DNA of 64,000 bases. It comes from an uncultured Faecalicatena sp. (lineage in GTDB: Bacteria > Bacillota > Clostridia > Lachnospirales > Lachnospiraceae). This document shows positions 172 to 18,163 of this stretch, piece after piece. The position numbers were made by a program, and so were the translations under genes. The stretch lies in assembly GCA_948468385.1 (NCBI GenBank), contig CAOKHZ010000016.1, forward strand, positions 1-64,000, given 5' to 3'. Position 1 is the first letter of the stretch, and every line of letters begins with the position of its first letter. A model generated the notes under the pieces. It was not told where the DNA came from. It saw nothing but the letters and a program-made list of their open reading frames with translations, and did no database searches.

Positions 172-1365
172 GTGGATTATTGTGCGTTGGCGGTAACGGA
201 CGTGGGAACCAGAAAGCAAACGAACCAGGACGGCATTTGCATACGCGTCGCGGATACGAAAGAACATGGTCAGGTCGCGATGGCCGTCATCTGTGACGGG
301 ATGGGCGGGCTGTCCAAGGGGGAGGTCGCCAGCACCACGGTGGTGCGCGCGTTTTCGGATTGGTTTGAGCGCGTAGTGTCGCAAGGACTTTCCATATATT
401 CCACGGAAGAGGTTTCTGAAGCGTGGAGACGGATGCTTAAGGAAGAGAATCAGAAAATCCTTGAATTTGGCAGGGGGATTCATGTGAACATGGGAACGAC
501 ATGCAGTGCGTTGTTTTTGACGGGGAACGAGTATGTCATTGTGCATGTGGGTGATACCCGTATATATGCCTTGATGGGCGAGAGGCATTTGTTGACGCGA
601 GACCCATCGGATATGGGAGGTATGGAAGGTAGCATCAGGCAGCTTACTGCGGACCAGACCTATGTGGCCAGGGAGGTGCGTCTGGGAAACATGACGCCCG
701 AGCAGGCAAGGACGCATGCCAAGAGAAGCGTGTTGTTGCAATGTGTCGGAGCGTCCCGAGAGGTAGAACCGCAGGTCGTTTTGGGAGAGGTCCGGGCGGG
801 AATGGTGTTTCTGTTGTGCTCCGATGGATTTCGGCATGTGTTAAGCGAGGAAGAAATGCATGAAAATTTTTATCCGGTGGATTTCGGAGATGTTGGTCGA
901 TTGGAGAAAAAAGGTATAAAGTTGGTGGAATTGGTAAAGGAGAGGGGGGAGAAAGACAACATCTCCGTGGCGGTCGTCCAATGTGGAGAGGCGGGGCAGA
1001 ATGGGCGAACGATATGTGAAGGTCAAGAAGCGAGGCGGAATAAGTGGGAGGCATGCGGGAGCCAAAAAGTGGGGATGGCGGTATGCAAGAAGCAAAAAGC
1101 GGGTTCGGAAGAAGACGTTCGGGCGAATGTCGGTTGGAGGGAAAAGTTGTGGTGCATGGCAAAAAATAGAAAGCGAGAACGGATGTCAGAGCAGGCGATG
1201 GAAACAGCGCTGGCGGCGGAAATGAAACGACCAGCGAAATCGGCTTCGGCGGCAGAACTAGAACAGACTGCGGAGCTTCCGGCGTTAGAACTTAAGGATA
1301 TAGAAATAACGAAAATCTTACAGAGTATCACGATGGTTCATGCGAATGAGGTCATAAATCATTAA
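172..1365 (+). CDS. PP2C-family Ser/Thr protein phosphatase
   Basis: A 397-residue metal-dependent PP2C phosphatase that should remove phosphate from Ser/Thr residues of proteins in the same locus. The GTG start follows a purine-rich ribosome site at 151-160. PP2C signatures appear in order: NQDG with the metal-binding Asp near residue 20, DGMGG at 42-46, GTTC near 106, VGDTR near 128, a CSDG block near 220 and KDNIS near 263. The catalytic domain ends around residue 270. About 120 charged Lys/Glu/Ala-rich residues follow that are not part of the family and look disordered. It is the first gene of the Tad locus, upstream of a matching kinase and FHA protein, so its likely job is to reset phosphorylation of the pilus machine. 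Family assignment is firm; the substrate is inferred. Confidence 0.9.
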   Translation: MDYCALAVTDVGTRKQTNQDGICIRVADTKEHGQVAMAVICDGMGGLSKGEVASTTVVRAFSDWFERVVSQGLSIYSTEEVSEAWRRMLKEENQKILEFGRGIHVNMGTTCSALFLTGNEYVIVHVGDTRIYALMGERHLLTRDPSDMGGMEGSIRQLTADQTYVAREVRLGNMTPEQARTHAKRSVLLQCVGASREVEPQVVLGEVRAGMVFLLCSDGFRHVLSEEEMHENFYPVDFGDVGRLEKKGIKLVELVKERGEKDNISVAVVQCGEAGQNGRTICEGQEARRNKWEACGSQKVGMAVCKKQKAGSEEDVRANVGWREKLWCMAKNRKRERMSEQAMETALAAEMKRPAKSASAAELEQTAELPALELKDIEITKILQSITMVHANEVINH

Positions 1366-1422
1366 AGTTGAAATGCGTACGATAAAACGCGAATTATGAA
1401 AAAAGAAAGGTGGGAAAGCACC

Positions 1423-2487: not shown

Positions 2488-2614
2488 CGAGCGCGGCAAG
2501 CGCGGAAAATGAGGAGAATGACGCGTGTGAGTAAGGCGCGGAGAAAGGCGCGTGTGATTAGGGCAGGCATGGCGAGAGATAGGCACGGTCAGAGAGCGAA
2601 AGGGGGAGCGATTC

Positions 2615-3853
2615 ATGGATAATGTAAATGTGGAGGACATGGTGCGGGAAATTAAGACATATATCGCGGCCAACCTTCCGCTTAGTGAGTTCACCGACGA
2701 GGAGTTGGAGGAAAAAATTGAGGACGTGGTGGATAAAAAATTGTCCGGCCAATACTGCTCGATTGACAAGCGAGTCAATATTGTCAAGCAAATTTTCAGT
2801 TCCATTCGGGGATTTGGCATTCTCGACGTGATTATGAATGATGACGATATTACGGAAATCATGGTGAATGGGCCGAAAAATATTTTTATTGAGAAAAAAG
2901 GTGTGCTGCAAAAACTGGATCAGGAATTTGAGAGCGAGCGGCGGCTGGAGGACATTATCCAGCGTATCGTCGGGCTTGCGGGGCGGGAAGTCAACCAGGC
3001 CAATCCCATCGTCGATACCCGTCTGCCGGACGGCTCGCGTGTCAACGTGGTATTGCCGCCCATTGCCTTGTGCGGGCCGACGGTCACGATTCGAAAGTTT
3101 TCCAAGACCCCGATGACTATGGAACGGCTGATTGCGTATGGTTCACTGACGCAGGAAATTGCCGGTGTTTTGGAAATTTTGGTGAAGGCCAAATATAACA
3201 TTTTCATTTGTGGGGGAACCGGATCGGGGAAGACGACGTTTCTAAACGCCTTGTCCAATTATATTCCCAAAAATGAGCGAATCATCACGATTGAGGATTC
3301 GGCCGAGTTGCAGATTACCGGCGTGGACAACTTAGTCGGCATGGAGACGAGGAATGCCAACGCCGCCGGGGCGGGCGAAATCAGCATTCGGGATCTGATC
3401 AAGTCGTCGCTGCGTATGCGGCCCGAGCGGATTGTCGTCGGCGAGGTGCGCGGCGGGGAGGCGTTGGACATGTTGCAGGCCATGAACACGGGGCATGACG
3501 GATCGCTTTCCACGGGTCATGCGAATTCGGCGAAGGACATGTTAAGCCGTCTGGAGACGATGGTGCTGCAAGGGGCGGAAGGACTGCCCCTGGAGGCGAT
3601 TCGGCAGCAAATCGCGTCGGCGGTGGACATCATGATTTTTTTGTCAAGGCTACGTGACCATTCCAGAAAGACGATGGAGATTACGGAAGTGGTTGGTTAT
3701 GAAAACGGAGAAATCATTTTGAACCCGTTGTATCAATTTGAGGAAGATAAATTTAGCACGCTGGCGAAAGTGTCCGGCAGCCTGAAGCGGACGAAAAACA
3801 AGATGATACATGATTACAAGCTACAGTTGTCGGGGTATCGGTTGGAATTGTAG
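2615..3853 (+). CDS. TadA/CpaF secretion ATPase
   Basis: A 412-residue type II/IV secretion ATPase that powers assembly of Flp-type pili. After an N-terminal helical domain, the RecA-like core shows Walker A GGTGSGKTT (200-208), the acidic box ITIEDSAEL near 225-232, Walker B with RIVVGEVRG near 272-280 and a His box TGHDGSLSTGHAN near 292-304. All catalytic elements look intact and the length is typical of the CpaF branch. The ATG at 2615 follows GAAAGGGGGA. The 127 bases before it hold only a short, very basic ORF that is not convincing. The next gene starts nine bases downstream, so this one is probably co-translated with tadB. Confidence 0.95.
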   Translation: MDNVNVEDMVREIKTYIAANLPLSEFTDEELEEKIEDVVDKKLSGQYCSIDKRVNIVKQIFSSIRGFGILDVIMNDDDITEIMVNGPKNIFIEKKGVLQKLDQEFESERRLEDIIQRIVGLAGREVNQANPIVDTRLPDGSRVNVVLPPIALCGPTVTIRKFSKTPMTMERLIAYGSLTQEIAGVLEILVKAKYNIFICGGTGSGKTTFLNALSNYIPKNERIITIEDSAELQITGVDNLVGMETRNANAAGAGEISIRDLIKSSLRMRPERIVVGEVRGGEALDMLQAMNTGHDGSLSTGHANSAKDMLSRLETMVLQGAEGLPLEAIRQQIASAVDIMIFLSRLRDHSRKTMEITEVVGYENGEIILNPLYQFEEDKFSTLAKVSGSLKRTKNKMIHDYKLQLSGYRLEL

Positions 3854-3862
3854 GGGGAGAAC

Positions 3863-4732
3863 ATGAAACTATTTCAGAAGAAGGATGAGCCGGAGAAGGA
3901 ACCGCAGTATTACAAGGCGGCGGTGACGAACATCGCGACGTTGAATTACAAGGTGTATTACATGAGTAAGAAAGAAGCGGCGGCGTATTTTGTGTTGGCA
4001 TTCGTCATCGGGGCGGCGGTCGGATATTTGTTTTACGGTGGGCTTGCCAAGGATGAATTTGGCCAGACCACGCTTCTTACGTGGATTTTGAATGCCGCGA
4101 TATCGGTCGTGGTGGGCTTCGTGGCAGGAAAGTTATTTTTGCCGGTTCGAACGGAACAGATTATCCATAAGAGGCGGCAGCAGTTGAGCAATCAATTCCG
4201 TGACATGCTTGATGGCTTAACAACGTCGCTGGGCGCGGGCAACAACGTGGCCGATTCCTTTCGCGCGGTAAAGGAAGACTTGCAAATGCAGTATGAGGAA
4301 GGCGCGTATATTTTGCGGGAGTTTGACGTGATTTTGGCAGGAATGCAAAATGGTGTTCCCATCGAGGACATGCTATATGACTTTGGCGCGCGCAGCGGGA
4401 TTGACGACATCAAAAGTTTTGCCGAGGTGTTCAAGGTGAGCTACCGCAAGGGCGGCAACATGAAGGACATTATTCGCAACACGCATGCAATTTTGAATGA
4501 CAAGATGGAGATTCGCGAGGACATTGAGACGGTCGTGACGTCGAACAAGACGGAGCAGAACATGATGATTGTCATGCCTATCGTGCTGATTGCCATGATT
4601 AAGGGAATGAGCCCGGAATTCGCGGCCAATTTCGCGACGGTGACGGGCGTGATATCGACGACGATTGCCATCGGGTGCTTCGTGGCGGCGTATTATATTG
4701 GAAAAATGATTCTCGACATCGACGTGTCGTGA
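3863..4732 (+). CDS. TadB-like inner-membrane platform protein (T2SSF domain)
   Basis: A 289-residue membrane protein of the type II secretion F family. Two membrane segments (about 36-56 and 73-95) precede a cytoplasmic helical T2SSF domain with the typical LSNQFRDMLDGL and LGAGNNVADSF stretches. Two more hydrophobic segments lie at the C-terminus. Together with the TadC-like protein it should form the membrane platform on which TadA acts. It begins nine bases after tadA with GGGGGAGA as ribosome site. Family and position agree well. Confidence 0.88.
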   Translation: MKLFQKKDEPEKEPQYYKAAVTNIATLNYKVYYMSKKEAAAYFVLAFVIGAAVGYLFYGGLAKDEFGQTTLLTWILNAAISVVVGFVAGKLFLPVRTEQIIHKRRQQLSNQFRDMLDGLTTSLGAGNNVADSFRAVKEDLQMQYEEGAYILREFDVILAGMQNGVPIEDMLYDFGARSGIDDIKSFAEVFKVSYRKGGNMKDIIRNTHAILNDKMEIREDIETVVTSNKTEQNMMIVMPIVLIAMIKGMSPEFAANFATVTGVISTTIAIGCFVAAYYIGKMILDIDVS

Positions 4733-4782
4733 CGTGAGAAAGCAGTCGATCCGATGGTTTGTAGGAAAGCGAGGAGGAGAAA

Positions 4783-4935: not shown

Positions 4936-5032
4936 GCCAGAGGGGAGCATGACGCGGGGAAAGCCGCGTTTGACTGGAAAGCGTATCGTGTAGGAGATGA
5001 TGGGGGCGAGGGGCATGGAAGGGAGTGCACGT

Positions 5033-8000
5033 ATGTCAAATATCATAGGGACGACATATGAAATCATAGGAAAAATAGGTTTCGGCGGGGGCGGAAACGT
5101 CTTTCTGGCGAATCATCTGCGTCTGGGGAAGAAGGTGGTCTTAAAGGCGGACAAGCGAAAAATTACCGCCCGGCCGGAGCTTTTGCGCCGCGAGGTGGAC
5201 ACGCTGAAGAACTTGAGTCATTCCTACATTCCACAAGTGTACGATTTTTTCGTGGAGGGAGATACCGTCTACACGGTCATGGACTATATTGAAGGAGAAA
5301 GCCTGGACAAACCCTTGAAGCGGGGAGAAAAATTTTCCCAGCCGCAAGCGATAAAGTGGGCAAGACAATTACTTGAAGCACTTTGTTATTTACATAGTCC
5401 AATTCATGGGGTGCCGCCTCGGGGATTTGTGCACAGCGATATCAAGCCGGCAAACCTGATGAGGACAAGCGATGGAAATATTTTCCTGATTGATTTCAAT
5501 ATCGCGCTTGCCTTGGGCGAGGAAAATGTGGTCGGCTGTAGCGCGGGATACGCTTCGCCGGAGCATTATGGTCTGGATTTTTCCATGGTGGGAGGGATGA
5601 CCGGCACGCAGACGGACAAGCAAACGGAAACGATGCCGGGAGTGGAGACGGAAACGGTGTCGGACGTGGAGATGGAAACAGTACTTGATACGGAGACGGA
5701 AACAGTACTTGACACGGAGGCGGAAACAGTGCTTGACGCGGAGGCGGAAACGGTGCTTGACACGGAGACGATGACGGACGTGCAAACAGTGCCGGATACG
5801 GACACGCTGCCGGATTCGCGCCAATCAAATATGTCACCGAGTTCGATTTCGAATGCCTCGCCAAGCGTGTCGTCAAATTCTTTGCCGAGTTCGTCATCTG
5901 GTTGGTCGTCCGGCTCGTCGATGCGAAGAATCGTTCCTGACGTGCGTTCGGACATTTATAGCACGGGGGCGACGCTTTACCATTTGCTGTGCGGAAAAAG
6001 GCCGGCCAAACATGCGAAGGACGTGGTTCCACTTTCGGAAAAGGAGTTCAGTCCGCAAATTGTGGCAATCATTTCCAAGGCGATGAACCCGAATCCGAAT
6101 TTGCGTTATCAGTCTGCCGAGGAAATGTTGGAAGCGTTTTCTCGTTTGCATGAAAAAGACCCACGAACAAAGCGGTTGAAAAGAAATAATCGAATTGCAT
6201 ACACGGCGATAGGGGCTTGCTTCGCGCTGGGTGTGGTATCGGCGTTTGTCGGGCTGAAACGGATTCAGGTGCTGGAAAGCCGGTTGAAAGTGGTCGAGTA
6301 TTCGCAGAAAGCACTTGCAGGTGGCGACAAACAAGAGGCACTTAAGCTCGCGTTGGAAACCGTGCCGGAAAAAAACGGGCCACTTACCCCGGCGTACATT
6401 CCACAATCGCAGAAAGCATTGGCAGACGCGCTTGGGGTGTATGATCTTGCGGATGGATTTAAGAGATACAAGGTCGTCGAATTGCCGGGCAATCCGCTCA
6501 TGATGCGTATTGCGCCGGACGGGAAAACGGCCGCTTGCATTTATGAGGGATTCGTGGCGGTAATCAATACTGAAACGGCGGAAATCGTGGTCACGCTTCC
6601 GGTAGAAACATCGGTGTTGGCCGAGGTGCGGTATTTGGATGACGACAGAATTGCCTATGCGGGCAGGGACAAAATCGCGGTTTATGACATTGCGAGGGGG
6701 ATGGAAATCTGGTCGGGTCGGCCGGCTACGGCCATTGCCGTTTCGCAGGATGGAAAGACAGTGGCGGCCATATACAAGGAAGATACGTTCGCGACCGTGT
6801 ATGACGCGAATGATGGCCGTGTAAAATGCGAGGTGGATTTTCAAGGGAAGTATCAGGGCGTGGCGGAAAATAACGGCTTTGCGAATCCAGATGACAATCT
6901 GCTGGCATTGAACGAGGATGGCACATTACTGGCCGTGAGTTTTGAAGATGGTTCGCTGCAAATATTTGACTTCAAAGATTTGCAAAATGTGGGTACAAGT
7001 GCGGCGGGCGAGGATTTGCTTGGCACGGGCGAGAGTACGGGCAATGCGGATTCGCGCGTGCGAGGTGCAAGTTTGAAAATTTTGGATGAAATGTCAGGTT
7101 ATACCAATTTTGACGGTGGATTTTATGGAAATTATTTTGCGTTTTCGGCGGGAATGAATCGGGCGGCAATGCGGGAGAGCTCCACCGATTTGTCAGGAAC
7201 GGAATCGGGGGCAGAGCAGTCAAAACCGGGTTCAAGTCAATTGGCAGGTGCGTCATCGGAAGCGGACTTGGAAGCACAAGCGTCAACAAACGCAAAAAAA
7301 TGTATCGTGGCGGTGATTGATACTGAAGCGAAAACGCAGGCGGGCGGTTTTGAGTCGGACGGGTATTGCAAGGTGGCGACGGATGAAAATGGAATTTATT
7401 TGCAGCGAAATAACGTGCTGGTGAAAATGAACCCGCTCACCGGGGAGCAAGAGCCGTTGGTTGACATGACGGGTGGTATTCGAAGTTTTGACACGGATGG
7501 CGTGAACACCGTGGCCGCGACCGTTGATAAGTTATTGTTTTTTGATGAAAACGCAAGACCGGCGGGAAGCTTCGAGGAGGATGGAACGGGTGAATTTGTG
7601 CAGACGGCGAATGGCGTGGCGGTAAGCGGCAGTTTGAATTCGCCGGTGGTTCAGATTTTACGGCATGAAAACCAAGCGGGAGCAGAAGTGTTTCATTACG
7701 ATGCCTCTTATGAACATGCCGAGGCAAGGGTGAGCGTGGATGGAAAGACGATGATGTTATTTTCCTATCGGGGATTTCGTATTTGCGGAGACAACGGGAC
7801 AGTGATTGCCGAGGTGGAAATTCCGGATGCCGGGCAGGTGTATGACCAGCAATATGTCAGGGACGATGAGGGTGAGCGGCTTGAGGTGACATACAATGAC
7901 GGGACGATGCTGGCGTATGACGGGCAGAGCGGGGAAATGGTTTCCGATGGGAATAGCGGCGGGGGGTTAAAGTCGGGAGAGGATGGACGAGCATCGGGGG

Positions 8001-8359
8001 CGAAAAGGGATGCCGATGAGGAGTATTTTACGGATGCGTACAAAATCGTCGCCCCACTCCATGGAACGCCGACGGTATATGACAGAGAGTCGGGCGAGTT
8101 GGTGCGCGAGTTGGAAAAGGATGCGTATTTGACCTACGTGACGGAGGTCGGCGACTACATTGTCACACAGTATGCGGCTACGGACGGAAGTTATTATGGA
8201 ATTTTGTTAAATGGAAAATGTGAAGTATTGGCCGAGTTGCCATATTTATGCGACGTAATCGGGAAGGACTTGTACTTTGACTATCCGACGGGAAGTGTGA
8301 GAAAGACACACATTTATAATATGGAAGAACTTTTGACGCTGGCGCGGGCTGCCGAATGA
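5033..8359 (+). CDS. Transmembrane Ser/Thr protein kinase with beta-propeller-like sensor domain
   Basis: An 1108-residue Hanks-type kinase. The ATG at 5033 is preferred over ATGs at 4997/5000 because GGAAGGGA precedes it at proper distance and the domain begins at once. Seen: glycine loop GFGGGGNV (16-23), VVLK with catalytic Lys38, alpha-C Glu54, HSDIKPAN with catalytic Asp136 (HRD changed to HSD), IDFN at 153-156 (DFG changed to DFN) and SPE at 175-177 in place of APE. About 115 low-complexity Thr/Glu/Ser-rich residues are then inserted before the conserved DVRSDIYSTG. A membrane helix lies near 380-402. Some 700 outer residues with many short beta-strand repeats resemble a WD40/PQQ-like propeller. 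It sits inside the Tad locus and probably phosphorylates its components in response to an outside signal (inference). Confidence 0.88.
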   Translation: MSNIIGTTYEIIGKIGFGGGGNVFLANHLRLGKKVVLKADKRKITARPELLRREVDTLKNLSHSYIPQVYDFFVEGDTVYTVMDYIEGESLDKPLKRGEKFSQPQAIKWARQLLEALCYLHSPIHGVPPRGFVHSDIKPANLMRTSDGNIFLIDFNIALALGEENVVGCSAGYASPEHYGLDFSMVGGMTGTQTDKQTETMPGVETETVSDVEMETVLDTETETVLDTEAETVLDAEAETVLDTETMTDVQTVPDTDTLPDSRQSNMSPSSISNASPSVSSNSLPSSSSGWSSGSSMRRIVPDVRSDIYSTGATLYHLLCGKRPAKHAKDVVPLSEKEFSPQIVAIISKAMNPNPNLRYQSAEEMLEAFSRLHEKDPRTKRLKRNNRIAYTAIGACFALGVVSAFVGLKRIQVLESRLKVVEYSQKALAGGDKQEALKLALETVPEKNGPLTPAYIPQSQKALADALGVYDLADGFKRYKVVELPGNPLMMRIAPDGKTAACIYEGFVAVINTETAEIVVTLPVETSVLAEVRYLDDDRIAYAGRDKIAVYDIARGMEIWSGRPATAIAVSQDGKTVAAIYKEDTFATVYDANDGRVKCEVDFQGKYQGVAENNGFANPDDNLLALNEDGTLLAVSFEDGSLQIFDFKDLQNVGTSAAGEDLLGTGESTGNADSRVRGASLKILDEMSGYTNFDGGFYGNYFAFSAGMNRAAMRESSTDLSGTESGAEQSKPGSSQLAGASSEADLEAQASTNAKKCIVAVIDTEAKTQAGGFESDGYCKVATDENGIYLQRNNVLVKMNPLTGEQEPLVDMTGGIRSFDTDGVNTVAATVDKLLFFDENARPAGSFEEDGTGEFVQTANGVAVSGSLNSPVVQILRHENQAGAEVFHYDASYEHAEARVSVDGKTMMLFSYRGFRICGDNGTVIAEVEIPDAGQVYDQQYVRDDEGERLEVTYNDGTMLAYDGQSGEMVSDGNSGGGLKSGEDGRASGAKRDADEEYFTDAYKIVAPLHGTPTVYDRESGELVRELEKDAYLTYVTEVGDYIVTQYAATDGSYYGILLNGKCEVLAELPYLCDVIGKDLYFDYPTGSVRKTHIYNMEELLTLARAAE
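5642..5761 (+). repeat. Five 24-bp tandem repeats inside the kinase gene
   Basis: Five in-frame 24-base units encode an eight-residue motif of the form xExETVLD (VETETVSD, VEMETVLD, TETETVLD, TEAETVLD, AEAETVLD). They lie in the insertion between the SPE motif and subdomain IX of the kinase. Copy number could change by slippage without breaking the frame. Confidence 0.85.
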
Positions 8360-8462
8360 GTTCGCCGCTTGTCAAATGAATGGCTAGGTGAGTCGACGTT
8401 TGACTCATGAATGGCGGCATCTATTGCACGTAAGTGCGCATGAATGAGGGAGAATGACGAAA

Positions 8463-9341
8463 ATGATGTTTTTACCTATTTTGGACTTGGTGGTGTTGGG
8501 AATCGGTTGCGTATTCCTTGGAATCTGGCTGTTGATTTTCATGCAATCAAAAAAATACGACAGTATTTTCCAGACGCTGGATGAAAAGGAATATCCATTA
8601 AAGGAGCTGTATTCCACCGGGTACGCGGTTCTGGAACTGCTTCATTACAATTACAAAAGCAAGTACGACCGAAAATTCCGTCAGGAGTTGGAAGTGCTTT
8701 ATGAAAAGAAATATGTGGAATTTTATTTGCGCGTGGCCTACGCGAGGGCGCTTACCTATGGAATGCTGATGTTTTTGTCCGGCTTCATTTTGTATGGCGT
8801 TTCGGGAGAAATCTTGTTGCTTCCGCTGGCGTGTCTCTACAGTGGCGTGGCGGTATACTATTTTCTGACATTGAGCGGGCAAAAAATCAAAAAACGCTCG
8901 GAGGAGCTTTTGAAGGATTTTTCCGAGGTGGTGTCCAAGCTGGCACTTTTAACCAATGCGGGAATGATATTGCGGGAGGCGTGGGAACTGATTGCCAAGG
9001 CAGGAGAAGGGACGTTTTATCAGGAAATGCGTTTGGCAATGGATGACATGCACAATGGAATTTCCGAGGTGGAGGCATACCGCAGATTCGGGATTCGCTG
9101 CATGGTGCCGGAAGTGAAGAAATTTTCTGCCACGCTGATTCAGGGCGCGGAAAAGGGAAACAAGGAATTGACGGCCATGCTGCAGGAGCAGAGCGCGGAA
9201 GTGTGGAATACAAGGAAGCAAAACGTCAGGAGAGAGGGCGAAAAAGCGGCGAGCAAGCTGATGCTGCCCATCTTCATGATGTTTATCGGGATATTGATCA
9301 TGGTGATTGTTCCCATATTCGCAAATTTAGGCGGAGTCTAA
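8463..9341 (+). CDS. TadC-like inner-membrane platform protein (T2SSF domain)
   Basis: A 292-residue second T2SSF-family protein, partner of the TadB-like protein. An N-terminal membrane segment (LDLVVLGIGCVFLGIWLLIF) is followed by two central hydrophobic stretches, a cytoplasmic domain with FSEVVSKLALLTNAGM, and a C-terminal membrane helix ending PIFANLGGV. A start at 8454 is also possible, but GAGGGAG at 8446-8452 fits 8463 better. The large kinase gene separates it from tadB, so kinase and platform genes are interleaved. A 94-base spacer before it holds only a small TGAGTC/GACTCA hairpin (8389-8407). Confidence 0.85.
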   Translation: MMFLPILDLVVLGIGCVFLGIWLLIFMQSKKYDSIFQTLDEKEYPLKELYSTGYAVLELLHYNYKSKYDRKFRQELEVLYEKKYVEFYLRVAYARALTYGMLMFLSGFILYGVSGEILLLPLACLYSGVAVYYFLTLSGQKIKKRSEELLKDFSEVVSKLALLTNAGMILREAWELIAKAGEGTFYQEMRLAMDDMHNGISEVEAYRRFGIRCMVPEVKKFSATLIQGAEKGNKELTAMLQEQSAEVWNTRKQNVRREGEKAASKLMLPIFMMFIGILIMVIVPIFANLGGV

Positions 9342-9408
9342 CTGCGGAATGCAGATTAGATAAAAAGGGCGTCCCTGTGGGCGCGACAAAAAAAGAAGGA
9401 GGATGAAA

Positions 9409-9801: not shown

Positions 9802-10422
9802 ATGAGAACTCTATGGAAGGAAAACAAAGGCTCTTTGATTATTGAGGCAACCTACGTGTTTCCAATCATGTTTTTTGTTTTACTTTTTTTGATATATATG
9901 GGTAACATGTTTTACATGCGTTCGCAGGTGGATTCTATCGTAACGCGGGCGGCGGTGAAGGCGGCGGCCTATCAGGCGGATCCGCAGCTTAAGACCATCA
10001 TGGAACAAGGCTCCGTGCCGGGACAGATGAATGACATTCAGCCGTATCATAGTTTGTTTGGGACATCGGCTTCAGCTAATGCGGTGCGAAACGAGATGGT
10101 AGAGCAGCTTAATACTTTGGGAACGGGATTTTTTGCCGGGATGGGGCTACGTGACATCGTGATTGACGAATTCCAGTATAACGGTTCCTTGGTCGCCAGT
10201 ACGTTTTCCGTGAAGGTGACGTATCGTATTCGATTTCCCATCCGTTTTCTGGGAGATAATTCGCCGGTGATTTTGCAGATTCGTTCGCAGGCCACGGTGC
10301 CGGTGACGGACACGCCGGAATTTATACAAAACGTGGATATGGCGATGGATTTTGCGGATTCCACGGGAGTGACGGATAAAGTGAAAGACTTTGCGTCAAA
10401 GGTGGGAGAATTTTTCAAGTGA
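9802..10422 (+). CDS. TadE-like pseudopilin
   Basis: A 206-residue protein with the TadE layout: short basic N-terminus, processing-type motif G10-SLIIE15 (glutamate at +5), one hydrophobic helix (about 16-36) and an extracellular domain with beta-strand-rich sequence. TadE pseudopilins are processed by the prepilin peptidase and are needed for fibre assembly in other Tad systems. The ribosome site is GAGGAAG. It follows the pilin after a 156-base spacer holding a long hairpin. Confidence 0.85.
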   Translation: MRTLWKENKGSLIIEATYVFPIMFFVLLFLIYMGNMFYMRSQVDSIVTRAAVKAAAYQADPQLKTIMEQGSVPGQMNDIQPYHSLFGTSASANAVRNEMVEQLNTLGTGFFAGMGLRDIVIDEFQYNGSLVASTFSVKVTYRIRFPIRFLGDNSPVILQIRSQATVPVTDTPEFIQNVDMAMDFADSTGVTDKVKDFASKVGEFFK

Positions 10423-10448: not shown

Positions 10449-13400
10449 ATGATGCGGATGTTTCGTAAAAAAGACGGGGCGGTGACGGTTTTTTTGACCA
10501 TCATTCTGGTGCCGATTATCGTAATTAGCTGTTTGTTCGTGGACGCGAGCCGGATTCGGCTGGCGCAGTCGGTCGTGTCATCGGCCGGAGATTTGACACT
10601 GAACACGGTGCTGACGCAATATGACCCGATATTAAATGATTATTATGGAATGCTTGCATCGTGTCAGGATATAGAGGATTTTTTGGAAAAAGCGGACGAG
10701 TACTTCATGGCATGCGTTACCTCACAAGGCGTGGAACATTCGGACGCGAGGAAATATGTGGATCAAATAAATGGCATGATAAATGGAAATGGCGGCGAAA
10801 TCGTTGACCTCTTGCAGATTGGCGAGGCGGACGGGGGAGAGTTTACGGTGGCACCAGTGAAAAATGGCACATTGGCCAATCCGGCGTTGGTAAAGAAAGA
10901 GATTGTCGAGTTTATGAAATACCGGGCGCCGATTGACGCGGTAGGGGAACTTTTGGAAAGGATGCGCAAGGCGGCGAAGAATTTGGAGGGGACAAAGGAC
11001 GACGCGGATTTGACGGAAAAAAAGAAGAACTATTATGAGGCCGAGGGCGAGGTATGTAAAAAGGCGTTGGAAGTATATAAAGAATTGAAAGAGTATAATA
11101 ACCTGAATATTGACGCGAACGCGGTGGCATCGATGAAGCAGACGCTTCAAGACACGGAAAACCACTATAGGCAATGCCATGAAAAAATGGTGAAGGACCT
11201 TTTTAACACGGAAGGGATGGGGAAGTTCCAGGCGGGAAATATCAACGTGAATTATCAGGCGACGGCGAGTGAAGTGAGAAAGGATCAGGTGGATATTTAT
11301 ATAGATACGACATCGCAGTATATCAGTGAATTTGTGACAAGGGCAAATAGCCTGGACAGTTTGTACCAGAATACCCAATTACTACCGACATATAATTCGG
11401 GCACTGTGTATGATATCCAGTTTTGGCGGGTGTGGGATAGAAATCTACGTTCGAATCGTTCCACCTATGACCAATATGTTTCAAGCGCCAACAAGTTGAT
11501 TCAACGAATGGCAAGGCTTACGAAGGCGATGGAAGAAGAGCTTTCGGAGGAGGAAAAAAACGAAACCTACGCGCTGACATGGAGAAGCGGAGTTGATAGT
11601 GACGGGACGAAAACACGGCAGGAACATTATGAAAGCTTGAAGAAGCAATATGATGAATTGTGCAAGAATTATTTGAAGAATTCAAATAGTGCCTACCAAA
11701 AAATAACGAATTTAATGACCCGCTTATCAAACGATTATATAGGAAGCATAGATTCAAGTGAGACAAACGCGAAGATTCAGTCGATTTACAGTACGTTTAA
11801 CGAGTATTATTCGAAATTTGACAACGCGATTAAGTACCTTGATAATGCGATTAAGAAAACGGAAGAATTGATGAAATTGGTGAACAAATATCAATCATCG
11901 TTTGAGCAATGGAATTCGGCGGCTACGAACTATAGCACGGACTTGGCCAAGGAAGATAGGGACGCGATTGCGGAATTGGACAAGGAGGTCAAGGAAAACG
12001 TGACGGCACAGTCCGTGGACGAATTGCTCCAGCGGCTGAAAAACATGAAGAGCCTGATGGAAAGCCTGAAAGCGATGGTGGACGGGTACAAGTACAATAA
12101 CACCCGCGTCAGGGATATTGACAATTATCAGACGTTTAAAAACAAGTCGGGCGTGGACGCGAGCCAAATTACGTATGATAGGAACGCGTTGAACAACTAT
12201 GCAAGTTCTAGTTTTAAGTTCAGTGGCCCGGCGAATGCGGGAAACATCCAGATAACGAATCAAAACAATCCGTCATTGGAGGTGAACAGCCCGAAGCTGT
12301 ATAAGTGGATGGTGGATAAATTCAAGGATGCCGATGATAACGAGATAAAGAAGCAGGAGAATAAGAAGAAAGACGAGGAAAAGAAATACAAAGACGAGAT
12401 AGACCAAAAGGATGTCGGGAAAGGGAATCCGAACAGTAGCAACGAGATTACGGGCGACAACCTTCCGTCCGCGCAGTATGGAAAAGACCTTGCGGATGGT
12501 ATCATCACGACGGACGTGTCGAAAATATCCGAGAAAGTGGCGAACCTATTTTCCAATTTTGGGGCGAACGTGGGGCAGAGTGCGGTGGATTTGCGGGACG
12601 ACTTGTATGCGCTCGACTACATTACCCACATGTTTAGTTATGACACGTTTGAATATGAGGGAAAATACCAGCTTTGTAACGGTGATGTCACGCTGGAAAA
12701 TTATGTGCAGAAATATGCCTCCGTGGAGGAAAAGTGGAACAGCGAGAAATTGACGGACACGTACAATAAAAGCCTGATGAACAAGCTGATTAACACGGAC
12801 AATAACTTTTCTTATGGAAACGAAGTGGAATACATACTGTATGGAAAGAGCAATAAGGAAAACAAGCAGTCAGCCTACGGAACAATATTTGCCATCCGCT
12901 ATGCCCTGGATTTGCTTCCCGTATCCCAACGGTATTGGAAGGCAAGTGAAAAATATCCGGAAAGTGTGGTATTGGATGGGATAGCGGATACCGTACAAAC
13001 GGTGTCGCACGGGATTATTCCCAAACCGTTGTTTAAGTTGGTGGTCATACTGGGACTTACCGCGATGGAGGCGGCAAGGGACGTCCGGTATCTGAAATGC
13101 GGAATGCCGATTGAATTGACCAAGAAGCCGGACGATTTGGAATGCACGTTCTCGACGGACGGTGCCGATGAGACGACGAAAAATAAAAGCAAATCGGCCT
13201 CCGCGATGTTTTATAGCGACTATATCAAGATTTTGTTGTTTTTGAAATTGCTTGGCAGTGAGGAATACAACGTATATGCCAGGGTGGCCGACGTGATACA
13301 AGTCAACATGAACAAAGTGACCGGGAAATCATTTTCCATGAATAAGTCGGTCGTATATTTCCAGGGGACGGCGACGTTGGAAGTCGCCCCGTTGATGCTG

Positions 13401-13490
13401 GATTTGCCAATCGCGACGAATTACGGTGTGGACGCGCCGGAGGGCGGCGACTGGAACCAGATTCAATACAAGTCGATTCGGGGATATTGA
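10449..13490 (+). CDS. Large TadG-like membrane-anchored protein (DUF5702-like)
   Basis: A 1013-residue protein starting with a basic stretch and the hydrophobic segment AVTVFLTIILVPIIVISCLF (residues 11-30), followed by DASRIRLAQSVVSSAGDL, the typical entry of TadE/TadG-like proteins. The long extracellular part is rich in Asn, Lys, Asp and Tyr, with coiled-coil-like stretches at about 180-260 and 330-560 and a very charged Lys/Asp/Glu segment near 620-660. It resembles proteins annotated DUF5702 beside Tad genes of Clostridia; that is recalled, not searched. It may be a pilus tip, surface base or adhesin component. The upstream TadE-like gene ends 26 bases before it. Confidence 0.75.
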   Translation: MMRMFRKKDGAVTVFLTIILVPIIVISCLFVDASRIRLAQSVVSSAGDLTLNTVLTQYDPILNDYYGMLASCQDIEDFLEKADEYFMACVTSQGVEHSDARKYVDQINGMINGNGGEIVDLLQIGEADGGEFTVAPVKNGTLANPALVKKEIVEFMKYRAPIDAVGELLERMRKAAKNLEGTKDDADLTEKKKNYYEAEGEVCKKALEVYKELKEYNNLNIDANAVASMKQTLQDTENHYRQCHEKMVKDLFNTEGMGKFQAGNINVNYQATASEVRKDQVDIYIDTTSQYISEFVTRANSLDSLYQNTQLLPTYNSGTVYDIQFWRVWDRNLRSNRSTYDQYVSSANKLIQRMARLTKAMEEELSEEEKNETYALTWRSGVDSDGTKTRQEHYESLKKQYDELCKNYLKNSNSAYQKITNLMTRLSNDYIGSIDSSETNAKIQSIYSTFNEYYSKFDNAIKYLDNAIKKTEELMKLVNKYQSSFEQWNSAATNYSTDLAKEDRDAIAELDKEVKENVTAQSVDELLQRLKNMKSLMESLKAMVDGYKYNNTRVRDIDNYQTFKNKSGVDASQITYDRNALNNYASSSFKFSGPANAGNIQITNQNNPSLEVNSPKLYKWMVDKFKDADDNEIKKQENKKKDEEKKYKDEIDQKDVGKGNPNSSNEITGDNLPSAQYGKDLADGIITTDVSKISEKVANLFSNFGANVGQSAVDLRDDLYALDYITHMFSYDTFEYEGKYQLCNGDVTLENYVQKYASVEEKWNSEKLTDTYNKSLMNKLINTDNNFSYGNEVEYILYGKSNKENKQSAYGTIFAIRYALDLLPVSQRYWKASEKYPESVVLDGIADTVQTVSHGIIPKPLFKLVVILGLTAMEAARDVRYLKCGMPIELTKKPDDLECTFSTDGADETTKNKSKSASAMFYSDYIKILLFLKLLGSEEYNVYARVADVIQVNMNKVTGKSFSMNKSVVYFQGTATLEVAPLMLDLPIATNYGVDAPEGGDWNQIQYKSIRGY

Positions 13491-13594
13491 CCAGCACGAA
13501 TGGTGTGAAGATGGAATGAGGAGGATGGAAAGCAAAAAAGCGTCGGCGGGCGCGGCGGCGCGAAGCGGCGAACGAAATGGCAGGAGGAAGTCGG

Positions 13595-14641
13595 ATGAAA
13601 AGGAAGAGGCAGGAAGGGGCGGTCGTAATCGAGGCGACGATTTCGCTGACGACGGTGATGTTTTTAATCGTTACGATATTGTCCATCGTCAACATTTGCC
13701 TGGTGCAGGCAAAAATCAGCACGCTGACGCATGGCATTGCCAAGGACATTTCCAATTACACCTATATTTATACCCTGATGGGACTGAACCAAAAGGAGGC
13801 GGCGATTTCGGCAAAGGCGGATTATAGCCGAAGGACGCTAGACACGGCGGGCAAATTGCCAGGTGAATTCACGGAGGGCAGCACGGAAGTATATGGGAAG
13901 ATTGCGGAATTGTCAAAGACGGTGATGGACACGGAGTTTTGGGAGAGTTCCCTATATTTGGTGGCACAAGGCGGGCTCGATACGGTAAAGGGCGATGTCG
14001 TGGATGACTTGTGCAAGCTGGCGGCGAGGAAACGGCTTGCAAGTATGGGAACGGACGCGGACGCGTACCTTCGTCATCTGGGAATTGAGAGCGGAGTTGA
14101 GGGGTTGAATTTTGAACATTCCGAAGTTTGCTCGGGCGGCGGTGATGACATTAAAATTATTGTGGTGTACGAGGTGCATTTGCTAAAGCTTTTGGGAGTG
14201 GATTTTGATTTCCGATTTGAGCAGTGCGCTTACACGAAGACCTGGTGTGCGAGAAGCGGGGACGATAGGCGGGACGTTGGCGGGAAAAAAGAAAGCTCGG
14301 AAAAGGAAGAAGCAGAAATAGAAGGCTCTGGCGAACCGGTTGCGGGATTGGACAGAATGCAGGAGCCAGGATATGGAGGGCGATGCGAAAGAGGATTCGA
14401 TGTGACATATGGGCTTAAGAAGAGGAGTGTTGTGGGGAATGGCAGTGAACGTGATACGGTATGCGACGATTGTCGTGGCGGTTTTGGTTTGTGCCGTGGA
14501 GTACCGATTTATGAAGGAAATAAAAGACGTGCCAAAGCCGGAGACGAAGTGGGAGAAAATGTATTTTCAATGCATGCCGTTTGCCCTCCTGCTTCTTTCG
14601 CTGTACTTGATAGTGAGAACGGATGCGGCGCATGTGTTTGA
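13595..14641 (+). CDS. Second TadE-like pseudopilin with an unusual C-terminal extension
   Basis: A 348-residue protein; the start at 13595 is chosen because AGGAGG (13582-13587) fits it better than the ATG at 13577. It begins MKRKRQ and has the processing-type motif G8-AVVIE13, followed by a hydrophobic helix (about 14-38). The recognisable domain ends near KTWCARSG (about residue 220). The remaining ~125 residues are charged, then Cys/Gly-rich, and from 14439 they are read out of frame over the prepilin peptidase gene. That tail looks non-native, so the original stop may have been lost by mutation or frameshift. Role: minor pseudopilin of the Tad machine. Confidence 0.78.
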   Translation: MKRKRQEGAVVIEATISLTTVMFLIVTILSIVNICLVQAKISTLTHGIAKDISNYTYIYTLMGLNQKEAAISAKADYSRRTLDTAGKLPGEFTEGSTEVYGKIAELSKTVMDTEFWESSLYLVAQGGLDTVKGDVVDDLCKLAARKRLASMGTDADAYLRHLGIESGVEGLNFEHSEVCSGGGDDIKIIVVYEVHLLKLLGVDFDFRFEQCAYTKTWCARSGDDRRDVGGKKESSEKEEAEIEGSGEPVAGLDRMQEPGYGGRCERGFDVTYGLKKRSVVGNGSERDTVCDDCRGGFGLCRGVPIYEGNKRRAKAGDEVGENVFSMHAVCPPASFAVLDSENGCGACV

Positions 14642-15089
14642 TTGTTGGAAGCTCGTGGCGGTGGCGGCATTGCTCTGGCCGGTCGCCTTCATTGACTGGA
14701 AGACGAACACGATTCCCAATGAATGGATTTTACAAGGAATTGCCTTGCGGGGAATGATTTGGATTTGCGAATTATTGTACCAGCCTGCGGATGCGGCGGC
14801 ACGTATCGTGGCGGACTTGTTGGGATGTGTCATTTTGTTGTGCGTGTGCATCATGTTAAGGTTTTTCTCGCGGAACGGGCTGGGAATGGGGGACGTGAAA
14901 CTGCTTTCCATACTGCCATTGTTTTTCGGGATGATAAATGGATTTACGGCGGTCATTTATTCGCTGCTCGTGGTGTTTGTCCAATCCTGCTATTTTCTGA
15001 TTACGAAGAAAAAAGGGAAAAAGGACGTGATACCGATGTGCCCATCGATTCTAGTGGGGTGCGTGATTACAATTTTATTGAAAGGATAA
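14439..15089 (+). CDS. A24-family prepilin peptidase (TadV/CpaA-like)
   Basis: A 216-residue polytopic aspartic protease that cleaves the leader of the pilin and TadE-like proteins. The two active-site regions are visible: FIDWKTNTIPN (first Asp) and GMGDVKL (second Asp in the GxGD motif). Five to six hydrophobic segments surround them. The N-methyltransferase domain of large PilD proteins is absent, as in other Tad peptidases. An in-frame ATG exists at 14409, but AGAGGAG at 14421-14427 favours 14439. The gene overlaps the upstream ORF by about 200 bases in another frame. Confidence 0.88.
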   Translation: MAVNVIRYATIVVAVLVCAVEYRFMKEIKDVPKPETKWEKMYFQCMPFALLLLSLYLIVRTDAAHVFDCWKLVAVAALLWPVAFIDWKTNTIPNEWILQGIALRGMIWICELLYQPADAAARIVADLLGCVILLCVCIMLRFFSRNGLGMGDVKLLSILPLFFGMINGFTAVIYSLLVVFVQSCYFLITKKKGKKDVIPMCPSILVGCVITILLKG

Positions 15090-15093
15090 TGAC

Positions 15094-16410
15094 ATGAAAA
15101 ATTACAAGAACGCGGTGGCAATCGCGATGGTGGCTTTGATGGTGTTTAGCGTTTATTCTACGGTGGCAAATGCAAACAGCCAGGAGGCGGAATATGAGGA
15201 ATACCTTGCAATTGCACGGGAAAAGGCCGAGTTGGAAATCATCGAGGACGCGGCCATCAATTACCGCAAGGCGTTGGACATGAAGGACACGGTGGACGTA
15301 AATATCGAGATTGGGCAGATGTACGTGGACAACGGATGGCTGAGCGAGGCCATTTCGTGGGGCGAGGACGTGGTGGAAAAGTACCCGAAGGAGCCTACGG
15401 CGTATGAATTTTTGCTACAACAATATATTAGCGCGGAGCATTATGACAAATGTTTCGTGTTGCGTGACCAGGCCGAGGGACGGGAGGCGGTGAATGCCGG
15501 ATTTGAAGAACTGATGGCGCAAATTGAATATGTGTTTGAATTGGAATACTCCACTTATGACGAGGTTGGCGTGTTTGGCAATGGATATTGCGCCGTCCTG
15601 GACGAGGATAGGTGGGGCTATTGTGATTTATATGGGGATGAGGAAATCAAGCCGAAATTCTTGTGGGCGGGAGCGTTCACTACGGATGAGGTGGCTCCGG
15701 TGCAGGATGAAAATGGTGATTTCTATTATATTTCGACATCGGGAAATAAGAAAATAGCAATTCAAAATCTAGAAAAATGCATGGATTTAGGCGTATCCAT
15801 CAACCAGGTTTTACCTGCCGGGGATGATGGAAAATATGCGTATTATAACCAGAAATTTGAGAAAGTATTTGACGGGGAATTTTCTTATGCGACGGCCATG
15901 AATGGCAACGTGGCGGCGGTCGAGGTGGATGGAAAATGGGATTTGATCGGAGCCAATGGAGAAATGCTCACGGAGACGGGATATGACGGCGTGATTTGGG
16001 ATGAGAAGGGCATCGTGTTCCGCAATGACCGGGTGTTCGTGGAAAAGGACGATCAAATTATCATGACTGACAAGGAAGGAAACCAGATTGGCGGACAAAC
16101 GTATGATGACGCGGAATTATTTTTGCAGGCCGACGGATATGCGGCGGTTGAAGTTGACGGAAAATGGGGATTCGTGGATAAGGAAGGGGAGATGGTGATA
16201 GAGCCGCAGTACGAAGCGGAGAGGTCGTTTTGCAATCAGTATGCGGCCGTGAAAAAGGGCGGTTCTTGGGGATTTATCAACGCTGCCGGGGAGCCGATTA
16301 TTGAGTTCGCGTTCGAGGACGCAAAGGACTTTAACGAGCGCGGATGCGTGTTCGTAAAAATGAATGGAAAATGGCGGATTTTGAAATTGATGAAGATGAA
16401 TTATAAATAG
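15094..16410 (+). CDS. Exported WG-repeat protein
   Basis: A 438-residue protein with a signal peptide or N-terminal anchor (residues 1-27, ending TVANA), a helical TPR-like part (about 30-140) and then WG repeats: WGYCDLYGDEEIKPKF, KWDLIGANGEML, KWGFVDKEGEMVIEPQY and SWGFINAAGEPIIEF. WG repeats form beta-rich domains often found in surface proteins of Clostridia, with no fixed biochemical role. It starts four bases after the prepilin peptidase stop, so it is probably co-translated and part of the Tad operon. A pilus-associated or sensor role is inferred. A larger WG-repeat gene occurs at 25384. Confidence 0.8.
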   Translation: MKNYKNAVAIAMVALMVFSVYSTVANANSQEAEYEEYLAIAREKAELEIIEDAAINYRKALDMKDTVDVNIEIGQMYVDNGWLSEAISWGEDVVEKYPKEPTAYEFLLQQYISAEHYDKCFVLRDQAEGREAVNAGFEELMAQIEYVFELEYSTYDEVGVFGNGYCAVLDEDRWGYCDLYGDEEIKPKFLWAGAFTTDEVAPVQDENGDFYYISTSGNKKIAIQNLEKCMDLGVSINQVLPAGDDGKYAYYNQKFEKVFDGEFSYATAMNGNVAAVEVDGKWDLIGANGEMLTETGYDGVIWDEKGIVFRNDRVFVEKDDQIIMTDKEGNQIGGQTYDDAELFLQADGYAAVEVDGKWGFVDKEGEMVIEPQYEAERSFCNQYAAVKKGGSWGFINAAGEPIIEFAFEDAKDFNERGCVFVKMNGKWRILKLMKMNYK

Positions 16411-16441
16411 GAAATGAATGCAAAGAGGAGGATGTCGAGAA

Positions 16442-18163
16442 ATGAATGCGTTTCAATGCGAGAAACAAGGGGCAAACACGTACATGGTGTATGAACTTTC
16501 GGAAAAAGAAGAGGTGGACAGCTTAAGTCTCGGAATGTTGCTAAATAATAGGATTCGAGGACTGGCACAAGTCATTTACGGACAGATGGACGACGTGCAG
16601 TGCCTGCGCTACAACATTTCTTCCAAGACATCTCTCTCCCAATATTTGACGGGAATATTGAGTAGGGAACGCATTTTGAAAATCTTCCGATTGGTGACGG
16701 AAACGCTTCTGGAAGCGGAAGAATACATGATAGAGCCATCGTCAATTTTGCTGAGTCCCGAGCATGTTTTTGTGGATTCCCAGACGGGGGAGACGGCGTT
16801 GATTTGTCTGCCGCTCATGAATATCGAAGGAACGGATGTCAGCGCGTTTTTTAAAAACATTATGTTCGGTTCTAATGCAATTTTTGACTCACGGGAAAAT
16901 TGTGATTACGTGGCGCGGATTATCAATCATTTGAATAGTGCGGAAACATTTTCGTTGGTGAATTTCCGTGGCTTGCTGATGGAATTGGAAAAAGAGCCGC
17001 AAGGCGCGGTCGGGGGGCCGGGCGGAGTCGGTGCACAAGGAGTACCAGGAACGAGCGGCGCACGAGATGTATCAGGAGGGCAAAGCGTATCGGGAGTACG
17101 AAGTGTGCCAAGTGGTCAGGTGGCACCGAAGATGGATGCTGCGCCGGGAATGATGGGAACGCAAGGCGCGTCAGGAAGAAATGGCGCACAAGGAGCGGCT
17201 GTGGGAAATATTGCGCCGGGAGCGGGTGGTATGCGAGGAGTGAATAGTGTGCCGGGCGTGGGAAATGTCCCGGTAGGACAAAACGTGGTGAATGTGCAAG
17301 GAGCGTCAGGTGTACAAAGCCCGGTGAGAGTAAATGGCGCGTCAGGAGCACAAAGCCCGGTAGGAATAAATGGCGCGTCAGGGATGCAAAGTGTACCAAG
17401 AACGAATGGCTTGCCGGGAGTGCAAACTGTGGCAGGATTGAAGAGCATACCGCGAGCACAAAGCGGAGGAAATATGCAAAAGGTACCGCTGGCACAAGGT
17501 GCGCCAAGGGGACAGGGTATGGCGGGAAACGGGATGCAGCCAGTTGGTTTTGACATTCCCGGCGCGGCGGCAGTTGGCTCTGGCGCGGGTAGTGCGGGAG
17601 TAGAAGAGAAGAAAAAGTGGTCGTTGTTTGGCGGCAAGTCAGATAAGGAAGAAAAAAATAAGAAAGCAAAGGATGAGAAAAAAGCATCCAAGAAAGAACA
17701 AGGAGAGAAAAAGTCGGGCGGCATTTTCGGGTCGTTATTTGGAGGGAAAAAGTCGAATGAAGAAGATCAGAGAAACAGTGGGATTGGAGCTTCGTATGGT
17801 AGTTCGTCCTATGACCCGGACGAGACATCTATCGTAATGGATGAGGAAGTGACCACATTGTTAGATAACGAGCCAAGACTGATACGGGAACGGAACCAGG
17901 AAATTATTTTCCTGCAAAAGGACGTGTTCCGTATCGGCAGGAAACGCGAAGTAGTGGATTATTGTATAGAGGGGAATCCTACCATCGGTCGTTGTCATGC
18001 GGTAATCGTCAGAAAAGGAGATGCGTTTTACATTGTGGACGCAGACTCGAAAAATCATACTTATGTAAATGGAATCATGATAGAAAGCAACGTGGAAGTT
18101 CCACTTGAGAATCAGGCGGTGATAAGGCTGTCGGATGAAGGATTCGTGTTTGAGGTGAGGTGA
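16442..18163 (+). CDS. FHA-domain protein with N-terminal DUF6382-like domain and repetitive linker
   Basis: A 573-residue cytoplasmic protein. The ATG at 16442 fits AGAGGAGGA (16424-16432); in-frame ATGs further upstream lack a site. Residues 1-180 match the N-terminal domain that commonly accompanies FHA domains in Clostridia (DUF6382-type, recalled). Residues about 185-390 are a Gly/Ala/Gln/Val/Pro-rich repetitive linker, then a Lys-rich segment. The C-terminal FHA domain (about 480-573) shows the RIGR...GNPTIGRCHAV...DADSKNHTYVNG pattern of phospho-threonine readers. A TSIVMDEEVTTLL stretch before it contains threonines that could be kinase targets. As last gene of the locus it is the natural reader for the kinase/phosphatase pair. 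Confidence 0.87.
   Translation: MNAFQCEKQGANTYMVYELSEKEEVDSLSLGMLLNNRIRGLAQVIYGQMDDVQCLRYNISSKTSLSQYLTGILSRERILKIFRLVTETLLEAEEYMIEPSSILLSPEHVFVDSQTGETALICLPLMNIEGTDVSAFFKNIMFGSNAIFDSRENCDYVARIINHLNSAETFSLVNFRGLLMELEKEPQGAVGGPGGVGAQGVPGTSGARDVSGGQSVSGVRSVPSGQVAPKMDAAPGMMGTQGASGRNGAQGAAVGNIAPGAGGMRGVNSVPGVGNVPVGQNVVNVQGASGVQSPVRVNGASGAQSPVGINGASGMQSVPRTNGLPGVQTVAGLKSIPRAQSGGNMQKVPLAQGAPRGQGMAGNGMQPVGFDIPGAAAVGSGAGSAGVEEKKKWSLFGGKSDKEEKNKKAKDEKKASKKEQGEKKSGGIFGSLFGGKKSNEEDQRNSGIGASYGSSSYDPDETSIVMDEEVTTLLDNEPRLIRERNQEIIFLQKDVFRIGRKREVVDYCIEGNPTIGRCHAVIVRKGDAFYIVDADSKNHTYVNGIMIESNVEVPLENQAVIRLSDEGFVFEVR
17300..17443 (+). repeat. 36-bp in-frame tandem repeats in the FHA protein linker
   Basis: Units of 36 bases encode 12-residue repeats: GASGVQSPVRVN, GASGAQSPVGIN, GASGMQSVPRTN and a diverged GLPGVQTVAGLK. 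Related but looser Gly/Ala/Gln/Val repeats extend on both sides. The linker probably spaces the FHA domain from the N-terminal domain. Confidence 0.75.

Follow-up and report, generated by a model that had tools for sequence, protein, structure and literature searches.

Why a protein phosphatase, a transmembrane Ser/Thr kinase and a protein with a phosphothreonine-reading FHA domain should be encoded among the genes of a pilus is the question raised by the Tad locus at positions 172-18163 of the window, the 64,000-nucleotide stretch of an uncultured Faecalicatena sp. analysed here, whose start is base 1 of contig C16 in a 4.25-Mb draft genome (G000) of the Lachnospiraceae. To our knowledge, little has been established about what turns Gram-positive Tad pili on and off. 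We found that this trio is a conserved part of one Tad subtype and not a product of chance, and we consider it probable that the window represents a distinct clostridial subtype bearing a phosphothreonine control cassette that works by the mechanism proposed below.

Distribution of the trio among Tad loci

Of 150 genomes of the family, 64 matched a profile of the TadZ domain (PF21194), at 73 places in all, of which 62, the window included, were used and 11 were excluded as lying near a contig end or matching only part of the domain. With four further places from other families of the class (matches in 5 of 243 genomes at 1e-12, one being the window's own), this gave 66 loci: 22 of type A, which share the window's TadA clade, 42 of type B with other TadA proteins (in one of which, G003, no TadA was in view), and 2 cassettes lacking TadA. 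Two loci with weak TadZ scores, G077 and G100, were typed A after their gene content was known, and the TadA tree independently places both in the clade. In that tree of 62 rows, all 17 kinase-bearing loci fell inside a single 22-row clade (support 100/99) and the 38 rows labelled kinase-less fell outside it; the remaining five clade rows comprise three loci cut by contig ends (G041, G009, and G160) and two that lack a kinase, G005 and G133, the latter retaining only TadZ and TadA.

Type A loci were counted as testable if they had both TadA and TadC and extended 6 kb or more past TadC; of 19 such loci, 16 had the full trio, the exceptions being G005, which has none of the three genes, G053, which lacks PP2C, and G009, which is cut by contig ends. 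Type B loci commonly carried a DUF6382 gene (34/35) with an FHA domain (28/35) and never a PP2C or a kinase (0/35 for each), so that PP2C and kinase together separate the two types sharply (16/19 versus 0/35, Fisher 4.6e-11). The fetched type A stretches were longer than the type B ones; in equal stretches from -6 to +14 kb the counts were 8/19 versus 0/35 for the pair and 9/19 versus 0/35 for the kinase alone, and when the count was confined to 4 kb around the DUF6382 gene, the pair occurred at 12/18 type A and 0/23 type B loci (Fisher 2.4e-6). We rejected a chance neighbourhood, given a kinase at 17 of 19 type A loci and at none of 35 ordinary ones. From genomic kinase density, a kinase is expected in a 40-kb stretch in 0.93 of 16 genomes, these 16 having been chosen for their kinase-bearing Tad loci. 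In 16 type B genomes, none of 65 genome-wide kinase matches lay in a Tad stretch or within 30 kb of a Tad place on the same contig.

When a close set of five type A FHA proteins was used to scan a collection of species genomes, 80 loci were kept of 227 relatives, a sample that leans to type A because of its query, and 68 of the 80 have three or more Tad gene families around them. Of these named Tad loci, 55 span 19 kb or more; they encode PP2C in 52 cases, a kinase in 50, and both in 50, along with a small membrane protein in 40, a propeller kinase in 10, and a WG-repeat protein, typical of this subtype, in all 55. The five without both enzymes are L124 and L203, where the missing gene or genes lie past the flank, L126 and L147, which have neither, and L202, which has PP2C and no kinase in view. 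Records of the trio-bearing subtype are titled Lachnospiraceae, Oscillospiraceae, Ruminococcus, Clostridium lacusfryxellense, and Family XIII. The expectation that the trio would stay with Tad genes across Clostridia thus holds for one subtype and fails for ordinary Tad loci, which in 28 of 35 cases keep the FHA protein alone. One of the latter lies in the window's own genome, where contig C7 (~27179-67178; L022, L040) carries a second Tad locus of ordinary type with a DUF6382 gene, and kinase and PP2C are absent from the 40-kb stretch examined. Separately, at two loci (L126 and L194) an EssC gene follows the Tad genes, with PP2C and kinase not in view.

The window locus and its two enzymes

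Pfam matches bore out the layout given in the preliminary description of this DNA, with PP2C first, the transmembrane kinase mid-locus, and FHA last among Tad genes on one strand. The 13 genes are as follows:

172-1365, + strand: PP2C phosphatase, the eraser (PP2C_2, 5.8e-13)
1396-2487, + strand: TadZ, receiver-like domain and ATPase (TadZ-like_ARD, 1.4e-41)
2615-3853, + strand: TadA/CpaF motor ATPase (T2SSE, 9.3e-60; clade support 100/99)
3863-4732, + strand: TadB (T2SSF, 2.1e-6)
4997-8359, + strand: membrane Ser/Thr kinase, the writer (Pkinase, 2.9e-34)
8454-9341, + strand: TadC (T2SSF, 6.7e-10)
9403-9645, + strand: Flp major pilin (Flp1_like, 4.2e-13)
9802-10422, + strand: TadE pseudopilin (TadE, 2.8e-7)
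10449-13490, + strand: DUF5702 pseudopilin-like protein (DUF5702, 1.8e-19)
13577-14641, + strand: TadE/F-like pseudopilin open reading frame (ORF; no Pfam match, aligned with its G398 relative)
14409-15089, + strand: prepilin peptidase (Peptidase_A24, 5.1e-10)
15094-16410, + strand: WG-repeat protein with one N-terminal hydrophobic segment (WG_beta_rep, 7.3e-36)
16418-18163, + strand: reader, with DUF6382, a low-complexity linker, and FHA (DUF6382, 6.9e-22; FHA, 7.5e-14)

TadA, TadB, TadC, TadZ, Flp, TadE-like pseudopilins, and a prepilin peptidase on a single strand mark this as a Tad/Flp pilus locus of Gram-positive type. Genes are separated by 4-264 nt, one overlap excepted, and 350 nt follow the FHA gene. 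A genome of the same genus, G398, has the identical order (its Flp was missed by the profile used), with the kinase gene between tadB and tadC and PP2C first, preceded by a gene on the opposite strand. The ORF at 13577-14641 stops aligning with its G398 relative near residue 240 and extends 233 nt into the prepilin peptidase gene, in a different frame; it is likely a run-on from a frameshift, a deletion, or an assembly error. The Pfam scan covered 28 ORFs, 18 at 172-25329 and 10 between 25384 and 41176, with other small ORFs outside it. Nearby are three large BspA-like proteins with leucine-rich repeats (LRR_5; 18514-20202, 20419-22305, and 33358-35667) and an ORF at 23740-25329 that fuses an N-acetylmuramoyl-L-alanine amidase to a beta-lactamase-like domain. 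Scans of the sequence for promoters (34 promoter-like sites on both strands versus 21.0 expected) and for terminators (15 terminator-like sites versus 17.3 expected) were uninformative.

The window kinase has a single hydrophobic segment at residues 400-418, and its C-terminal part is predicted to lie outside because KRLKRNNR immediately precedes that segment. The outside region has weak propeller matches in Pfam; its AlphaFold model (mean predicted local distance difference test score, pLDDT, 80; 90 of 692 residues under 50) matched WD40 propeller chains in Foldseek at E ~1e-18, yet with displayed TM-scores of only ~0.2-0.4. The outside propeller proposed earlier therefore stands as an external, WD40-like region whose exact arrangement is not fixed. 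Within the kinase domain lies a Thr-rich insert (about residues 196-320) with four ETVLD repeats, a form found exactly in the window kinase only, the G398 insert having degenerate TETALD/TETMLD; inserts of propeller kinases average 11.3% Thr (n = 20) versus 5.6% in the remainder. The kinases of most relatives are about 560-660 residues long and are followed by a small protein with a single transmembrane (TM) helix, and the Tad loci of G022 and G194 have more distant kinases. Since several kinds of kinase occur at such loci, the activity itself would appear to be what is needed.

No small membrane protein was recognised in the window locus. The window PP2C has a C-terminal extension (about residues 275-397) that contains EQTAELP and ends in ITMVHANEVINH, and both this motif and the end of the tail are conserved in G398 and G391 of the same genus. 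The extension resembles the tail of the small membrane protein at other loci (0 of 2000 shuffles scored as high), a likeness that was noticed post hoc and for which a profile of the small-protein tail scored the PP2C tail below listing level; the extension may be that tail, relocated. In NCBIfam, PP2C scored below the curated cut-off for Stp1, as did the kinase for the PASTA kinase. An anti-phage role was also considered and rejected: in PADLOC the kinase domain resembled defence kinases (PD-T4-6, mad6) and PP2C resembled PDC-M21C (1.9e-10), matches to which we gave little weight because such enzymes in general might be expected to match, and the FHA protein was unmatched.

The reader and its candidate acceptor sites

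The DUF6382 domain of the reader was modelled with high confidence (pLDDT 93.5) as a kinase fold, with the TraF, EssB, and YukC pseudokinases among the first Foldseek rows (8cba, 4ann, and 6z0f; TM-scores ~0.5 by query length). A stretch of 44 alignment columns spanning the site where the catalytic loop is expected contains neither HRD nor DFG, and the reader is accordingly predicted to be a pseudokinase joined to FHA. A sequence search of the PDB with the DUF6382 profile returned nothing relevant, fold comparison alone having given these relatives. The likeness to EssB, YukC, and TraF lies in this fold and its missing catalytic motifs; the difference from EssB is that EssB has a TM helix and an outside domain, whereas the window reader has no hydrophobic segment and carries FHA on the same chain. 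Of 150 sampled genomes of the window's family, 148 have DUF6382.

The FHA domain of the window retains Arg508, Arg525, His527, Asn546, and Thr548 and has Gly524 in place of Ser, positions that we take to contact phosphate. Across 94 FHA domains from type A and collection loci, two pocket positions swap jointly (Lys/Ser in 68, Arg/Gly in 21). The motif T[TEV][VIL]L was present in 62 of 67 proteins with the Lys/Ser pocket and in 3 of 18 with Arg/Gly after removal of 6 duplicates (Fisher 5.7e-10). Collapsing at 90, 70, and 60% FHA identity gave p values of 2.1e-9, 1.4e-6, and 0.003, the last from 16/18 versus 3/10. The Arg/Gly pocket was also found at 11 of 18 propeller-kinase loci versus 2 of 57 small-protein loci (4.1e-7), and all these comparisons are uncorrected for shared ancestry.

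Ahead of its FHA domain the window reader has the motifs DETSIVMD and EVTTLLD. In a first set, the type A FHA linkers had 19 matches to T[TVE][VIL][LVI], spread over 13 of 16 sequences (shuffle mean 0.70, maximum 4), the type B linkers had 17 over 15 of 27 (mean 2.37, maximum 10), and other Tad proteins had 41 over 32 of 128 (mean 30.6, maximum 56). A validation set, which leaves out five FHA sequences seen before, gave the loose motif in 58 of 73 FHA linkers (shuffles 3.68) and a strict form, [DE]T[TEV][VIL]L, in 50 of 73 (0.08); for the small membrane proteins the figures were 42 of 47 (8.64) and 31 of 47 (0.47). Controls, which include PP2C, showed no clear enrichment, with the loose motif in 71 of 313 proteins (66.2; 87 matches versus 80.8) and the strict one in 8 of 313 (4.05, maximum 12; 9 matches versus 4.2, maximum 12), and in whole kinases the loose motif was no commoner than expected (6 matches versus 6.36). 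Linker matches cluster within 60 residues of the FHA domain (105 of 107), and 48 of 67 Lys/Ser-pocket readers carry two motifs. The small membrane protein, which adjoins most of the kinases, combines an N-terminal TM helix with a conserved end resembling ITYIHTDEVI and with 0-11 copies of T-x-[VIL]-L (none in 2 of 51). Tad core proteins were thus set aside as targets, their counts being not clearly above shuffle level in either set (41 versus 30.6; 87 versus 80.8), and because they are not enriched the phospho-acceptors likely belong to the cassette itself. The earlier prediction of phosphorylated Tad proteins is not what these sequences favour, the motifs sitting on the FHA linker and the small membrane protein.

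The reader could instead be phosphate-free, with FHA a plain protein-binding part of the Tad assembly and the kinase and phosphatase mainly hitting other targets. We regard this as the least probable of the readings weighed here, though the window FHA lacks the pocket Ser, the FHA protein is retained in 28 of 35 Tad loci without a local kinase, and the FHA domains of T7SSb EssC, which have no phosphothreonine site, still interact with EssB (PMC11217815, PMC9600267, in the parts that concern EssC). Against it, His527, Asn546, and Thr548 (window numbering) are conserved in 94, 93, and 92 of 94 rows, and ETTVL motifs adjoin the FHA domain, recur in a second cassette protein, and occur even in ordinary-type linkers (15/27).

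A second cassette, related systems, and the proposed switch

The window's own genome encodes a second cassette on contig C24 (L108, ~14000-33999; L204, 1-14000), at a type VII secretion system (T7SS) locus. It comprises a DUF6382-FHA protein, PP2C, a second FHA protein, TadZ, and a propeller kinase, and its neighbours are a BspA-like LRR protein, a second similar secreted protein, YukD, EssC (5e-189), and WXG100. None of the last three had a Pfam match among the scanned window ORFs. G398 likewise has both copies, its T7SS stretch having been labelled by likeness to C24. Informative DNA sites among the four kinases grouped by machine over residues 1-190 (51 machine, 4 genome, 2 cross) and by genome over the outside part (33 machine, 113 genome, 21 cross). 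PP2C (246, 9, 5), TadZ (407, 10, 8), and FHA (357, 5, 7) grouped by machine, and the kinase tree is in line with this picture at 100/100 for G398 and weakly for G000. This pattern fits gene conversion of the sensor half of the kinase only, between the Tad and T7SS copies of two genomes. One surface cue might then drive both machines, as the Tad and T7SS kinases would share a sensor half kept alike by conversion and the catalytic halves, phosphatases, TadZ, and FHA proteins would be machine-specific; ETTVL arrays would serve as membrane phosphothreonine antennas that recruit the reader, with array length setting the response. We offer this as a speculative extension that we think unlikely as it stands; if true, pilus attachment and type VII secretion would be switched jointly upon contact.

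Profiles found no Tad motor gene at six cassettes, G037 (L059), G067 (L009), G009 contig C17 (L116), G126 contig C3 (L121), G021 contig C5 (L122), and G412 (L114), where EssC was not searched. Four of the six precede secreted proteins of at least 1,900 residues, and L116 and L121 have an FHA domain on a chain resembling, by eye, a secreted trypsin-like protease. Cassettes of this kind, with no Tad genes in view and next to giant secreted protein or T7SS genes, raise the alternative that the cassette governs the products of neighbouring genes (giant surface proteins, BspA-like LRR proteins, or the T7SS) and merely shares a locus with Tad, as do the company of EssC, YukD, and WXG100 on C24 and the LRR protein that comes after the cassette both there and in the window. 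We think this improbable, given that the TadA clade has the trio at 16 of its 19 testable loci and neither enzyme occurs at any of 35 other Tad loci, that the kinase gene stands between tadB and tadC in both the window and G398, and that ordinary loci with a DUF6382 gene (34/35, with the FHA part in 28) never have such a cassette.

The trio had been equated with PppA, PpkA, and Fha of the type VI secretion system (T6SS), which it resembles in that a kinase, a PP2C, and an FHA protein are encoded with an envelope-spanning machine. No T6SS family was among the Pfam matches of the scanned window ORFs, and we rejected T6SS membership; the architecture of the reader is presumably unlike that of T6SS Fha. 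The nearer relative is the Gram-positive T7SSe cassette, for which the sections on it in Garrett et al. 2024 list the kinase TseD, the PPM phosphatase TseF, the DUF6382-FHA protein TseJ, the small TM proteins TseH and TseK, and the giant surface protein TseI (PMC11217815). The same sections raise the parallel to T6SS, and they report a TadZ-like TsfV in T7SSf, Tad genes adjoining T7SSg and T7SSh, and Ig-like domains in TsdI, the T7SSd relative of TseI (PMC11217815). Like T7SSe, the window encodes a kinase, a PPM phosphatase, and a DUF6382-FHA protein together, and the small membrane protein of other loci may match TseH or TseK; unlike T7SSe, the machine is a Tad pilus, and the parts of PMC11217815 on T7SSe make no mention of the ETTVL motif or a DUF6382 pseudokinase fold. 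In actinobacterial GarA and OdhI a regulatory Thr motif (ETTS) lies immediately N-terminal to the FHA domain, according to the relevant part of PMC12321487. The readers described here resemble these proteins in an acidic-Thr-Thr motif directly before the FHA domain, where the window has DETSIVMD and EVTTLLD, with the differences that readers here often have two motifs, a pseudokinase on the same chain, and the motif also on a membrane-anchored protein. Class III CpaF likewise links FHA to a Tad machine, through an N-terminal FHA domain on the motor (PMC12019362, in its account of CpaF classes), whereas here FHA is on a separate pseudokinase protein with its own kinase and phosphatase.

Under the control-cassette mechanism that we favour, the outside propeller region of the kinase would take in a surface signal, and the kinase would phosphorylate Thr in [D/E]T-x-[V/L]-[L/D] motifs, as their conservation suggests. 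Target sites would lie on the linker of the reader and, for most relatives, on the small single-TM protein; in the window's lineage they would extend to the Thr-rich insert of the kinase and perhaps to the tail of the phosphatase. The FHA domain would bind these phosphothreonine motifs; bound to its own linker it would keep the reader closed, as in GarA/OdhI, and bound to membrane-anchored sites it would draw the reader to the membrane. There the pseudokinase domain, with TadZ, may couple to TadA, TadB, and TadC and so permit or halt pilus work, and PP2C would reset the state, placing the pilus under the control of the cassette. Several observations weigh against this mechanism. Within the TadA clade, G005 and G133 are kinase-less on long contigs and G053 is without PP2C. 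Propeller kinases carry DFN/DYN for DFG and HSD/HGD for HRD, the window FHA has Gly at the pocket Ser, and its motifs TSIVMD and TTLLD are off-consensus. The covariation of motif and pocket is not secured against shared ancestry, with two supported independent tree pairs that mostly agree. Finally, the reader may act independently of a kinase, because ordinary Tad loci keep the FHA protein with no local one.

T7SS variants with a kinase, a phosphatase, and a DUF6382-FHA protein are published (PMC11217815, sections on these variants). In the literature searched, from which subscription journals were mostly absent, we found no description of such a set on Tad loci and no ETTVL motif, and the name DUF6382 appeared in a single paper. 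With this analysis DUF6382 gains a predicted pseudokinase fold. The locus would constitute a self-contained and testable circuit of writer, eraser, and reader, in which the peptide consensus of the reader is predicted and the acceptor sites can be counted. The kinase/PP2C/DUF6382-FHA set described for T7SS is thereby implied to be a portable control cassette that pilus systems use too, which suggests a single control module fitted to more than one kind of machine at the cell surface.

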